Below are positions 7,057 to 34,056 of a stretch of 38,050 nt of DNA, piece by piece (position 1 is the first letter of the stretch; each line of letters begins with the position of its first letter). The stretch covers positions 1 to 38,050 of the forward strand of contig LBRM01000012.1 of assembly GCA_000991415.1 (NCBI GenBank), written 5' to 3'. Below the pieces are notes generated by a model. That model was not told where the DNA came from, did no database searches, and saw nothing but the letters and a program-made list of their open reading frames with translations. Both the position numbers and the translations under genes were made by a program. Source of the stretch: Candidatus Nomurabacteria bacterium GW2011_GWA1_36_15 (GTDB lineage: Bacteria > Patescibacteriota > Minisyncoccia > Phycocordibacterales > UBA9973).

Positions 7057-7091
7057 ATTTTAAAGGAGTGAAACGACTATTAAAATTTGAA

Positions 7092-7146
7092 CTCTGTTAA
7101 ATAATTTTTGCAAAGCAAAAATTGTCCGAAGGACATTTAACAGGGT
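7092..7146. repeat. Dispersed inverted repeat, family B copy 1
   Basis: CTCTGTTAAAT...ATTTAACAGGGT with internal TTTTTGCAAAGCAAAAA and GTCCGAAGGAC. Confidence 0.8.
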
Positions 7147-7183
7147 AAAGAAATTTATATTCATTTTATTCATTAAATTTCAT

Positions 7184-9313
7184 TTATATATAAATTGTTT
7201 TTATTTTATTATTTTCTCCCCGCCCGAACGACTGTCCAGTCGGGCAGGCTTCTTTTTCTAAAATATCACTCGGGATGTCCGAGATAAATTCGGATGGAGC
7301 ATTTATCTGACGCGAGCCAAAAATGGTGCGAAAATTCGCAAATGATAAAAACAATTTTTCTTTAGCGCGAGTAAGAGCAACATAAAAAAGTCTGCGTTCC
7401 TCTTCTCTGTCTTCGGCATTTTTTATTTCCTCATTTTTTTGGTGTGGAAAGAGCCCATCTTCTAGCCCGGTAATAAAGACGTGTCTGAACTCAAGCCCTT
7501 TTGAAGCATGAGCAGTCATTAATTTTATCCCGTTAGAGGTAGAGGGTCGCTGCGAGCCCTCGCGACCTCTAACGGGATTAGCTGTATTTATCATCAGACT
7601 ATCTTGGTCAGAAGCCAAAGATGCATCCTCCAAAAGTTTTTCTATCCCCTCTCCGTTTTTCAAATTATCATATTTTAGCGCAAGTGTTGCCAGTTCTTTT
7701 ATATTTTCTAATCTCTCCACCTCTTCTTCGGTTCCGGAAGAAAGTTCCATCTCAATTCCGGATTTTTTTACTGTGAATTTTACAATTTCAGACGCTTTTT
7801 CGTTTTTGATTTTATTTTTTATCTCTTCTAGTATTTTGTAAAAATTATCGATTTTGATTTTTGTTTTCGTTGGTAAATTTTCTGTGTCTTTTGCAAAAAT
7901 TTTAGCCAGCGTAGCCTTTCCTATTCCTCTTGCAGGAAAATTTATTGTTCTTTTTATATCAGAGAGACTTTCCGGATTAAGGGCTGCTCGAAGATAGGCA
8001 AGAGTGTCTTTAATTTCTTTTCTTTCAAAAAATTTAACTCCCAAAACTTGATATGGAATATTGTATCGAAGCATCGCTTCTTCCAACGCGCGCGATTGAA
8101 AATTTGCACGATACAAAATTGCAACCTCGGACAACAGTGGGGGTGCTACTTCTGCGGGGTCGCTGTCTCCGCGTGCTCGCGGAGCGCTGCCTCTCGGCCC
8201 GTCGGCCTGCGAGACACCCCGCAAAAGTACACCCTCACTGTTGTCCAGTATCTCTAAAATTTTTGTTGCTACGAAATTTGCTTCGTCGCTCTCGTCCAGC
8301 GCTTCATAAAAACCGATTTTTTCGCCGATTTTATTTTTGGTAAATAGATTTTTATCCGGTCTATATTTATTTTTCTTTATTATTTCATTTGCCGCCTCCA
8401 GTATGTTTTTAGTGGAGCGGTAATTTTCTTCCAGCAAAATTATTTTTACATCTTTGCCATAATCTTTTTCAAAACTTAAAATATTTTTTAAATTTGCCCC
8501 GCGCCAAGAATAAATATTTTGATCAGCGTCTCCAACCACGCAAATGTTTTTATTATTTTCCGAAAGCAAGCGGGACATTAGATATTGCACTTCATTGGTG
8601 TCCTGATATTCATCAACATGGATATAATCCCATTTTTTTTGGTAAATTTTTCTAATTTGCTCGTTTTCTTTTAATAGTTTAGTCGCCTTTAAAAGCAAGT
8701 CATCAAAATCCAAAGAATTTTCTTTTGCCTTTTTCCTTTCATATAAATTCCAAACTTGGGCTACTATTTTGCTTAGATAATCGCTTGCCCTTTCTTTGTA
8801 ATCTACCAGGTGTGTGAATTTTCCTTTTTCCCGACTAATTATGTTGCCTATTTTTTTGGGATCATATTGTTTTGGGTCTAACCCCATTTCTTTTGTTGCT
8901 TCTTTTATCAATGCCGTAGAATCTGATTCATCTAGAATAGTAAAATGTCTAGTTAGCCCTAAAATTTTTGCGTTTTCTTTTATGATATAAACCCCCAAAG
9001 AATGGAAAGTACTAACAAAAGGCATTTTTTCACTATCAAGATCGAACCTTGACAGTGATTTCTCGAGAACATTTTGCCCTTCGCTATTTAGTAAATGGTA
9101 GACCCTTTCCTTCATTTCTTTAGCTGCTTTGTTGGTAAAGGTAACAGCCAAGATTTTCTCTGGCGCTACCCCATTTTTTATTAGATTTAGTATCCTATGT
9201 GTTATGGTTTTAGTTTTTCCGGCACCTGCTCCAGCCACGATTAAAAGTGGTCCCTCCATATGGGTCGCTGCTTCTTTTTGTTTGCTATTGAGACCTGACA
9301 GATGATCTACCAC
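7184..9313 (-). CDS. UvrD/PcrA/Rep-family ATP-dependent DNA helicase (with in-frame palindromic insertions)
   Basis: AGAGAGKTKTITHRI, VTFTNKAAKEM, VDEYQDTN, VVGDADQNIYSWRGA, LMTAHASKGLEF, VALTRAKEKLFLS motifs. Confidence 0.95.
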   Translation of the reverse strand: MVDHLSGLNSKQKEAATHMEGPLLIVAGAGAGKTKTITHRILNLIKNGVAPEKILAVTFTNKAAKEMKERVYHLLNSEGQNVLEKSLSRFDLDSEKMPFVSTFHSLGVYIIKENAKILGLTRHFTILDESDSTALIKEATKEMGLDPKQYDPKKIGNIISREKGKFTHLVDYKERASDYLSKIVAQVWNLYERKKAKENSLDFDDLLLKATKLLKENEQIRKIYQKKWDYIHVDEYQDTNEVQYLMSRLLSENNKNICVVGDADQNIYSWRGANLKNILSFEKDYGKDVKIILLEENYRSTKNILEAANEIIKKNKYRPDKNLFTKNKIGEKIGFYEALDESDEANFVATKILEILDNSEGVLLRGVSQADGPRGSAPRARGDSDPAEVAPPLLSEVAILYRANFQSRALEEAMLRYNIPYQVLGVKFFERKEIKDTLAYLRAALNPESLSDIKRTINFPARGIGKATLAKIFAKDTENLPTKTKIKIDNFYKILEEIKNKIKNEKASEIVKFTVKKSGIEMELSSGTEEEVERLENIKELATLALKYDNLKNGEGIEKLLEDASLASDQDSLMINTANPVRGREGSQRPSTSNGIKLMTAHASKGLEFRHVFITGLEDGLFPHQKNEEIKNAEDREEERRLFYVALTRAKEKLFLSFANFRTIFGSRQINAPSEFISDIPSDILEKEACPTGQSFGRGENNKIKTIYI
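7527..7578. repeat. In-frame quasi-palindrome in the UvrD-like helicase gene (copy near motif LMTAHASKG)
   Basis: ATCCCGTTAGAGGT...ACCTCTAACGGGAT, 14-bp perfect arms, inner AGGG...CCCT. Confidence 0.9.
8129..8246. repeat. In-frame GC-rich quasi-palindrome in the UvrD-like helicase gene
   Basis: Arms GGACAACAGTGGGGGTGCTACTTCTGCGGGGT / ACCCCGCAAAAGTACACCCTCACTGTTGTCC (few mismatches; ACACCCC spelled on + strand) enclosing CTCCGCG-TGCT-CGCGGAG and GGCC-CGTC-GGCC hairpins. Confidence 0.9.
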
Positions 9314-14373: not shown

Positions 14374-14376
14374 TCT

Positions 14377-14456
14377 AAAAACCGGAACATAAAAGTTTTC
14401 GCCTGCGGGCACTGGCTTCGTTTTGTCCGCCAGAAAATTTTTATGTTCCGGTTTTT
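14377..14456. repeat. Quasi-palindromic element with 24-nt arms (one mismatch) around a GC-richer core
   Basis: Left AAAAACCGGAACATAAAAGTTTTC; right GAAAATTTTTATGTTCCGGTTTTT; core has GCGGGCA...TGTCCGC hairpin. Confidence 0.9.
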
Positions 14457-14463
14457 AACTATA

Positions 14464-15539: not shown

Positions 15540-17108
15540 ATGGATACTTCAAAAAAAATAATATTAAAAATTCCGAAAGAAGTCTCACATATAATAAATA
15601 CACTTGAGAACAAGGGTTTTAAAGCGTATTTAGTTGGTGGCTGTGTTCGAGATCTTTTAATGGACAGGGAACCGAAAGATTGGGATATAACAACTGGTGC
15701 TAAGCCGGACCAGATTATTGAACTTTTTAAGAAAACAGTGTATGAGAATGTATTTGGAACAGTAGCTGTTATAAATGAAGATGTTTCTTGTGAAACGTTG
15801 CGTCAAATAGAAGTTACCCCATATAGAATTGAAGCAAAATATAGCGATTTTAGGCATCCGGATAAAGTAAAATTTAGCGATAATTTGGAAGATGATCTAA
15901 AAAGACGTGACTTTACAATAAATGCTATGGCTTGTAGAAATGGACAGGTAACTGATATATTTGGTGGTTTAAAGGACATAAAAGACAAGATATTGAAGGC
16001 AGTAGGGGATCCCGATGACCGTTTTAAAGAAGATTCACTTAGAATGCTTCGGGCGGTACGTATCGCTTTACAACTTGGTTTTTCTGTGTCTTATGAAAGC
16101 AGTGAAAGTATTTTGAGAAATTCAAATTTAATAAAAAAAATATCATCTGAAAGAATTCGTGATGAGCTTTCAAAAATAATTATGTCACCGAATCCATCTA
16201 TTGGGATGGTGATGCTTCAGAAGTTTGGTTTGTTGAAAAATATAATTCCAGAATTAGAAGAAGGGATCGGGTGTGAGCAGGCAGGTGAGCATATTTATGA
16301 TGTTTGGGAGCATTTGCTTCATGCCTTGCAGCATTCGGCGGAGAAAAATTGGTCTTTGGAAGTGAGACTAGCTGCACTTTTTCATGATATTGGGAAACCA
16401 AAAACCAGAAGGTTAGCTTCACCTGATACTTTTGCTCAGGTCCTCGGGTCGCCTGTACGGGATTCTAAAAATGAACAGGCTCAACCAGACCATTCGCAAA
16501 AGCATACAGGTTCAGCTAAAAAAAGATTTACTTTTTATGGCCATGAAGTGATTAGCGCGCGAATGGCGAAAAAAATAATGGAACGATTAAAATTTTCCAG
16601 AAAAGAAATTGATTTAGTGGAAAAATTAGTTCGCAATCATATGTTTTTCTCTGATACTGAATTGATTACTCTTTCTGCGGTGCGGAGAATTGTCACAAAA
16701 GTCGGGGTAGAAAATATTTGGTTGTTAATGAATGTTCGTGAATGCGATAGGGTAGGAATGAAGAAAAAAGAAACACCATATCGCTTGCGAAAATATTTTG
16801 CCATGATAGAGGAAGCACTACATAGTCCAATTTCCGTTGGCCAGCTTAAAATTGACGGAGAATTTATGATAAAAAAACTTAATATAAAACCGGGACCTCG
16901 CATGGGATGGATTTTGCATGCTCTTTTGGAAGAGGTTTTAGATGATCCGACTAAAAATGAAGAAAAACATCTTTCAGAACTAGTTAGATCACTAAATCTT
17001 TTGCCGGATGGGGCGTTGAAAGTGTTGGGAGATAGGGGGAAAGAAAAAAAAGAAGAATTAGAGGAACAAGAGATAGAAAAACTTCATTTGAAACATGGAG
17101 TGAGGTAG
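15540..17108 (+). CDS. CCA tRNA nucleotidyltransferase / poly(A) polymerase family with HD domain
   Basis: GFKAYLVGGCVRDLLMDREPKDWDITTGA, RRDFTINAMA, LRMLRAVRIA, LFHDIGKPKTR, FYGHEVISARMA. ATG at 15540 preferred over the GTG at 15528 that overlaps tRNA-Arg. Confidence 0.93.
   Translation: MDTSKKIILKIPKEVSHIINTLENKGFKAYLVGGCVRDLLMDREPKDWDITTGAKPDQIIELFKKTVYENVFGTVAVINEDVSCETLRQIEVTPYRIEAKYSDFRHPDKVKFSDNLEDDLKRRDFTINAMACRNGQVTDIFGGLKDIKDKILKAVGDPDDRFKEDSLRMLRAVRIALQLGFSVSYESSESILRNSNLIKKISSERIRDELSKIIMSPNPSIGMVMLQKFGLLKNIIPELEEGIGCEQAGEHIYDVWEHLLHALQHSAEKNWSLEVRLAALFHDIGKPKTRRLASPDTFAQVLGSPVRDSKNEQAQPDHSQKHTGSAKKRFTFYGHEVISARMAKKIMERLKFSRKEIDLVEKLVRNHMFFSDTELITLSAVRRIVTKVGVENIWLLMNVRECDRVGMKKKETPYRLRKYFAMIEEALHSPISVGQLKIDGEFMIKKLNIKPGPRMGWILHALLEEVLDDPTKNEEKHLSELVRSLNLLPDGALKVLGDRGKEKKEELEEQEIEKLHLKHGVR
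16413..16519. repeat. In-frame quasi-palindromic insertion in the CCA enzyme gene
   Basis: Arms TTAGCTTCACCTGATACTTTTGCTCAGGTC and GACCATTCGCAAAAGCATACAGGTTCAGCTAA are imperfectly complementary; inner GCCTGT...ACAGGC hairpin. Confidence 0.75.
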
Positions 17109-17201
17109 AAATATAAAATTCAAAAGATTTCTGAGCCTTCGCCCTCGGAGACAAGAGGACAGGGGACCCACGACTCTTTAAATCTTTTGAATTTTATATT
17201 T
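17109..17201. repeat. Quasi-palindromic element, shared-core family A, copy 1
   Basis: 22-bp perfect arms AAATATAAAATTCAAAAGATTT/AAATCTTTTGAATTTTATATTT around CTGAGCCTTCGCCCTCGGAGACAAGAGGACAGGGGACCCACGACTCTTT. Confidence 0.93.
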
Positions 17202-20333: not shown

Positions 20334-20339
20334 TAAAGT

Positions 20340-20454
20340 AAATTTACAAAATATAAACTTTCTTCCGGTACGGATTTTTTGAAGCTTAAAAAATCCTGAA
20401 ATGCTCGGCTCGACAGCCTCGCAACCCCTTCAGAAAGTTATATTTTGTAAATTT
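20340..20454. repeat. Quasi-palindromic element abutting the pnp start
   Basis: Arms AAATTTACAAAATATAAACTTTCT/AGAAAGTTATATTTTGTAAATTT (one indel); core has GGATTTTTT-GAAGCTT-AAAAAATCC and GGCT-CGAC-AGCC hairpins. Confidence 0.9.
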
Positions 20455-20466
20455 ATAAAATATAAT

Positions 20467-23862: not shown

Positions 23863-23874
23863 AAAAAATAATAT

Positions 23875-23970
23875 AAATTGTGAAAATTTAAAAAATTTCT
23901 GAGCCTTCGCCCTCGGAGTCAAGAGGACAGGGAACCCACGACTCTTAAAATTTTTTAATTTTCACAATTT
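23875..23970. repeat. Quasi-palindromic element, shared-core family A, copy 3
   Basis: Arms AAATTGTGAAAATTTAAAAAATTT/AAATTTTTTAATTTTCACAATTT (one indel) around CTGAGCCTTCGCCCTCGGAGTCAAGAGGACAGGGAACCCACGACTCTTA. Confidence 0.93.
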
Positions 23971-23979
23971 AATCAAATC

Positions 23980-33994: not shown

Positions 33995-34056
33995 ACCCTG
34001 TTAAATAAAATCCTTCGGATTTTAGCTTTTGTTTATAAAAAGCTATTTAACAGGGT
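33995..34056. repeat. Dispersed inverted repeat, family B copy 3
   Basis: ACCCTGTTAAAT...ATTTAACAGGGT with internal AAATCCTTCGGATTT; outer gaacagagcga/tcacttcgttc. Confidence 0.85.

Follow-up and report, generated by a model that had tools for sequence, protein, structure and literature searches.

The 118-bp GC-rich palindrome at positions 8129–8246 of the window, which lies in frame in a helicase gene, consists of a shared inner core and locus-specific arms, and only its inner part is a common element (hereafter named E1). This copy is probably a non-autonomous dispersed repeat resembling the Rickettsia palindromic elements (RPEs), carried as a disordered loop tolerated by the protein, with arms kept matched by template switching and a core spread by a trans-acting factor. 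The window is the whole stretch of DNA analysed (38,050 nucleotides), which is contig 12 of the source genome (22 contigs, 617,508 bases). The source genome was inspected in stretches around the matches, and the genomes compared were mostly metagenome assemblies.

The palindrome in the helicase gene

The ORF at 7184–9313 (minus strand) matched the UvrD/PcrA helicases (curated family match), and the nearest named relatives of its product belong to Candidatus Nomurabacteria. The first-pass annotation had described a GC-rich palindrome inserted in frame in this gene, and this was confirmed by the pairing of its arms, by the open frame and by base composition. The 17-nt arms at 8129–8145 and 8230–8246 are 94% complementary, 8147–8160 pairs with 8216–8229 at 93%, the frame is read without stops across the insert (NSEGVLLRGVSQADGPRGSAPRARGDSDPAEVAPPLLSEVAILYR), and the GC content is 0.67 within 8129–8246 versus 0.36 elsewhere in the gene. 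The folding z-score of the palindrome was −9.3 as DNA (plus strand) and −10.4 as RNA (minus strand), and none of 200 shuffled sequences folded as stably. E1 is oriented here in the same direction as the helicase gene. The features of the gene and of its palindromes are:

7184–9313, minus strand: host gene, PcrA/UvrD-type helicase of 709 amino acids, with the insert at about residues 360–395, predicted to be disordered
8129–8246, minus strand: entire palindrome, made up of the E1 core and its locus-specific arms and lying in frame within the helicase gene
8149–8229, minus strand: E1 element as modelled, 81 positions (covariance-model E 3.6e-26)
8156–8220, minus strand: conserved three-way-junction core of E1
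8189–8215, minus strand: hairpin 1, interrupted by a GCA/GA internal loop and capped by a GACG tetraloop; covariation
8162–8187, minus strand: hairpin 2, with a perfect stem (8167–8184) and an AGCA tetraloop; covariation
8230–8246, minus strand: arm on the 5' side of the core (gene sense), coding for about D-N-S-E-G, locus-specific
8129–8145, minus strand: arm on the 3' side of the core (gene sense), coding for about P-P-L-L-S, reverse complement of the 5' arm, locus-specific
7527–7578, minus strand: second, smaller in-frame palindrome of the helicase gene, with 14-nt arms and a 24-nt loop (..NPVRGREGSQRPSTSNG..)

Two perfect internal hairpins had been noted before; hairpin 2 is indeed perfect, whereas hairpin 1 contains an internal loop. 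The insertion site had been taken for a short linker of PcrA proteins, and the comparison with PcrA 1pjr, the best solved relative, bears this out: the alignment runs to residue 360 of the query (348 of the chain) and restarts at residue 396 (353 of the chain), leaving 35 residues where 1pjr has four, that is, about 31 extra residues. In the AlphaFold model, which is moderate overall (mean pLDDT 68), residues 360–391 form a coil (pLDDT below 50) that connects a helix to a strand. Comparison of the helicase with relatives of the same genus revealed empty sites at the position of the insert. No direct repeat (target-site duplication) adjoins the ends of this copy, the one copy that was inspected individually for it.

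At the site of the smaller palindrome (7527–7578) extra residues were also present in some relatives. A sub-threshold Rfam match at 7335–7432 of the window (minus strand; n00280, 43.4 bits against a cut-off of 65.2) involves a Clostridioides sRNA model located inside a helicase gene, and probably merely reflects helicase homology. The UvrD gene of another genome of the same genus (L062 1501–3777, G095:C14) was seen by eye to carry an apparent intein at the GDYDQ motif, starting with CLIENTKIKM and ending with THNC.

Two further palindromes of the window were included in the feature list:

16414–16512, plus strand: imperfect palindrome of the E3 family, inserted in frame in the gene for CCA tRNA nucleotidyltransferase
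20339–20455, minus strand: intergenic palindrome; the arms are AT-rich and the inner part (20359–20436) is weakly related to E1 (E 0.08)

E1 occupies the site of the E3 palindrome in other genomes. The architecture of the helicase palindrome had also been ascribed to the intergenic elements of the window; the covariance model found one weak relative among them, the segment at 20359–20436 just listed, and a shared architecture is thereby weakly suggested. Other intergenic palindromes were observed. The cores of those at 17109–17201 and 23874–23971 are about 49 bp long and nearly identical (CTGAGCCTTCGCCCTCGGAG[A/T]CAAGAGGACAGGG[G/A]ACCCACGACTCTT), and their AT-rich arms of 22–25 bp differ entirely, a pattern of common core and locus-specific arms lying between genes. 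Those at 7090–7150 and 33995–34056 are two-hairpin palindromes that share the outer arm CTGTTAAAT...ATTTAACAG around unrelated interiors, and the one at 14376–14457, with 25-nt arms, separates a tRNA cluster from a convergent gene and is possibly a bidirectional terminator. Elsewhere in the source genome, palindromes of other families apparently lie in frame in three genes (L299, L300 and L301, at G000 C4:4784–4829, C2:32594–32611 and C15:22073–22091); one of these is in Fmt, at the site that E1 occupies in other genomes, and the others are in PheT- and ScpB-like ORFs (by eye).

Copies, host genes and reading phase of E1

A search of the core against the source genome, as had been proposed, returned a second copy, in frame in the tRNA-guanine transglycosylase gene (tgt). 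Within the taxonomic family 77 of 148 genomes gave a match at E ≤0.1, and the strong matches came from the same genus, whose genomes often held several copies. Profile refinement yielded about 115 distinct copies, nearly all of them in one Ca. Nomurabacteria genus, a count in which intergenic and diverged copies are probably under-represented because the search was based on similarity to a coding copy. Copies are present in the named assemblies Ca. Nomurabacteria Ike-150m-34 and SJ72. The copy in tgt, the size of the family, the empty sites of same-genus relatives and a strong structural covariation all uphold the likeness to RPEs that the first-pass annotation had drawn. Structural relatives of E1 were found in 28 of the 289 genomes sampled across the class (genus members included), partly between genes, and E1 is therefore one branch of a wider group. 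No published description of E1 in Patescibacteria was found in the literature searched, which included few subscription papers. Two of the structural relatives (L263 and L264, at G000 C9:4637–4714 and 2545–2622) are inverted with respect to each other about 2 kb apart and have long matched arms; one is intergenic and the other lies at the start of a surface-protein ORF. These were considered as the ends of an autonomous transposon and rejected, since the intervening ORFs look like surface or envelope genes and no transposase was seen among them by eye.

After the weakest matches and the copies with a spurious-looking ORF had been dropped, 111 copies were classified, coding status being judged by open frames with homologous flanks: 102 were coding, at about 18 gene sites, many of them in unrelated housekeeping genes, and 9 lay outside coding frames. 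The hosts named by curated families (on representatives) were TsaD, peptide deformylase (Def), RecG, UvrB, Fmt, DNA polymerase I, an RluA-type pseudouridine synthase, CCA nucleotidyltransferase (whose gene in the source genome carries the insert of another family instead of E1), the helicase and Tgt. The Ile-, Leu- and Val-tRNA synthetases, MnmA, RsmA and a surface-like protein were named from the protein text by eye. The excess of coding copies was examined as a sign of gene targeting, with about 18 coding sites against about nine intergenic copies, and this was set aside because the coding share is no higher than that of the window (84%).

Both orientations of E1 relative to the host gene occur, and a single phase per strand was used in 101 of the 102 coding copies: 53 are read in one frame with the gene and 48 in one frame against it, and one copy, in the RluA-type gene, is read in another. 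Stops alone fail to explain this, since the almost unused reverse frame is free of stops in 95% of the copies. Chance is also unlikely (on the order of 1e-6), because the phase is common to all but one of the sites, the number of which (about 18) was counted by hand. We infer that the frames in use are tolerated since they result in small polar residues; the phase may be set by a phase-specific insertion mechanism.

Conserved core, matched arms and turnover

Alignment of 56 copies gave a three-way junction formed by a closing stem, hairpin 1 and hairpin 2, in which 98.4% of the 1288 cells are paired and 12 of the 23 pairs covary. Double changes in the core numbered 151, versus 8–16 when the partners were slid, and RNAalifold independently recovered nearly the same fold. 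Identity inside the core is higher at unpaired (97%) than at paired positions (87%), an indication that something recognises the loops. The stem of hairpin 2 had 84 cells with changes on both sides and none scored with a one-sided change, which suggests that the two sides are altered in a single step.

The flanks on the two sides of the core are for the most part reverse complements of each other, yet their sequence is specific to the locus: median arm pairing spans 25 bp within a copy versus 6 bp between copies. Arms of one and the same copy paired better than arms exchanged between orthologues at every one of the eight host loci, with a small margin for tsaD and recG. In coding copies both arms code. 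The 71 orthologous pairs contained 194 compensated double changes, where 67 double changes of any kind are expected if the arms are independent; these figures are indicative, since the pairs are non-independent and the positions were chosen as alignable.

The loops that host E1 are also subject to replacement. In related genomes the UvrD loop holds E1 in either orientation, palindromes of other families, tandem pairs or nothing. One TsaD loop held an insert in all 30 genomes inspected, of at least five kinds, and its occupants required at least 16 changes of type or orientation on the TsaD tree, compared with a minimum of 5 and with 18.5 for shuffled labels. L229 and L241, which are supported sisters, carry the core in opposite orientations. 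When the segment was inverted in place, the peptide of the other orientation was obtained in 57 of 105 coding copies, 46 of these being free of stops across the segment; the expected peptide was not obtained in the remaining 48, partly because the ends of the arms are uncertain. No insertion was caught between the near-identical genomes compared.

Several other explanations were weighed against this evidence. An assembly error, or a variable protein sequence with a chance palindrome, might be suspected in a fragmented genome of 22 contigs, where palindromes can misassemble, and in a loop that is variable; the recurrence of E1 in dozens of genomes and many genes, its in-frame flanks and its covariation make this extremely improbable. 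Strong covariation and conserved loops are typical of functional RNA, and E1 could be a structured element of the mRNA that selection for RNA folding maintains, such as a regulatory or processing structure. Against this, E1 lies in both orientations relative to the gene, no Rfam family matches the element, and the mismatches of the arms show no G-U excess in the mRNA sense (71 G-T versus 101 A-C). The G-T excess follows instead the element's own strand (123 G-T versus 60 A-C), whichever the direction of the gene, so that an mRNA element is improbable. This excess is suggestive of single-stranded DNA, in copies that share ancestry, and is compatible with a RAYT/REPIN- or IS200-type system in which Y1 transposases move the core and read its hairpins as single-stranded DNA, as may happen with the hairpins of REP/REPIN elements. 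Y1 matches exceeded the cut-off in 54 of the 80 genomes of the genus, and five were found in the source genome. The copies show no association with Y1 genes, however: some copy-rich genomes lack a Y1 match (G114 with 7 copies, G115 and G141 with 5 each, G108 with 4) and the Y1-rich genomes G092 (13 Y1) and G109 (14) have no copy, and we regard this system as slightly less probable still than the mRNA element. REPs lie outside genes and measure 20–40 bp (PMC3733652). Neither a transposase nor any other mobility factor could be linked to the E1 copies.

The arms might instead be host palindromes, E1 having been inserted at the tips of existing hairpins (terminators or older palindromes). Intergenic copies do lie in long AT-rich or terminator-like hairpins, simple core-less palindromes occupy the same TsaD loop in other genomes, and at an empty UvrD site a short GACA...TGTC pair flanks the linker. 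None of the empty UvrD sites examined held a long pre-existing palindrome, however, and both arms change together after insertion at orthologous sites; we thus hold it unlikely that the arms as a whole were inherited in this way, about as unlikely as an mRNA element. Somewhat better placed, although doubtful, is the proposal that a factor recognises the folded single-stranded core and places it at hairpin tips or copies the flank inversely. If this were true, the same protein loops would be reloaded repeatedly, by a movement that leaves inverted locus-specific arms and not direct target duplications.

Comparison with known systems and implications

Returning to the reading of E1 as an RPE-like repeat, which we consider probable, RPEs are elements of 105–146 bp with terminal inverted repeats that occur in intergenic regions and, in frame, within conserved Rickettsia genes, and their mobility is unknown (PMC2229807); nearly half of the 44 RPEs of R. 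conorii are in ORFs (PMC10969869). E1 is likewise a short dispersed palindrome with a long hairpin. Like the elements of Rickettsia and Wolbachia, which are short (about 100–150 bp) palindromic repeats of several families (PMC2229807, PMC10969869), it occurs in frame in unrelated conserved genes as well as between genes and appears to be tolerated by the host protein. It differs from them in belonging to another phylum, in its three-way-junction core with conserved loops, in its locus-specific arms, and in its apparent in-place flips and frequent replacement at one loop. By these descriptions E1 appears to work like an RPE, a likeness of kind that need not be one of descent.

The Correia/NEMIS and ERIC MITEs are also short non-autonomous palindromic repeats, some of them fused in frame (PMC2229807), but the terminal inverted repeats of these bacterial MITEs are fixed and accompanied by target duplications, whereas E1 has outer arms specific to each locus and no terminal inverted repeats common to all its copies. 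The coding palindromes of Nematomorpha mitochondria, for which template switching has been proposed, resemble E1 in that both arms code and stay matched while their sequence changes (PMC6649704). The arms of E1 likewise change in concert at orthologous sites, in pairs that are non-independent; unlike E1, the Nematomorpha palindromes lack a shared mobile core, carry conserved residues in the coding sequence of their arms and form no dispersed family. Template switching between inverted repeats homogenises arms and inverts the spacer, also in coding DNA (PMC8604942), and maintains hairpins by multi-base compensatory change (PMC8794818).

In the mechanism that we propose, E1 would be translated into a disordered loop and tolerated by the host protein, as the open frames and the predicted disorder suggest. 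Short-range template switching at replication would keep the arms matched and would also invert the core in place, which would account for the matched arms, the missing intermediates and the flips. Template switching fails to explain the conserved loops and the spread to many genes, and for this reason a putative trans-acting factor that reads the conserved loops and spreads the core is included.

Selfish palindromes in essential genes are best known from Rickettsia and Wolbachia. E1 would extend an RPE-like way of life to a distant lineage of ultra-small bacteria, in which many species have been sequenced, several families of elements occur and turnover can be seen. For annotation and structural work on Patescibacteria, this means that loops of the E1 type are not conserved features of the proteins. 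The Nomurabacteria family opens the question of how palindromes stay perfect, are swapped and are flipped in coding DNA, and also lets the tolerance of essential proteins to extra loops be gauged.
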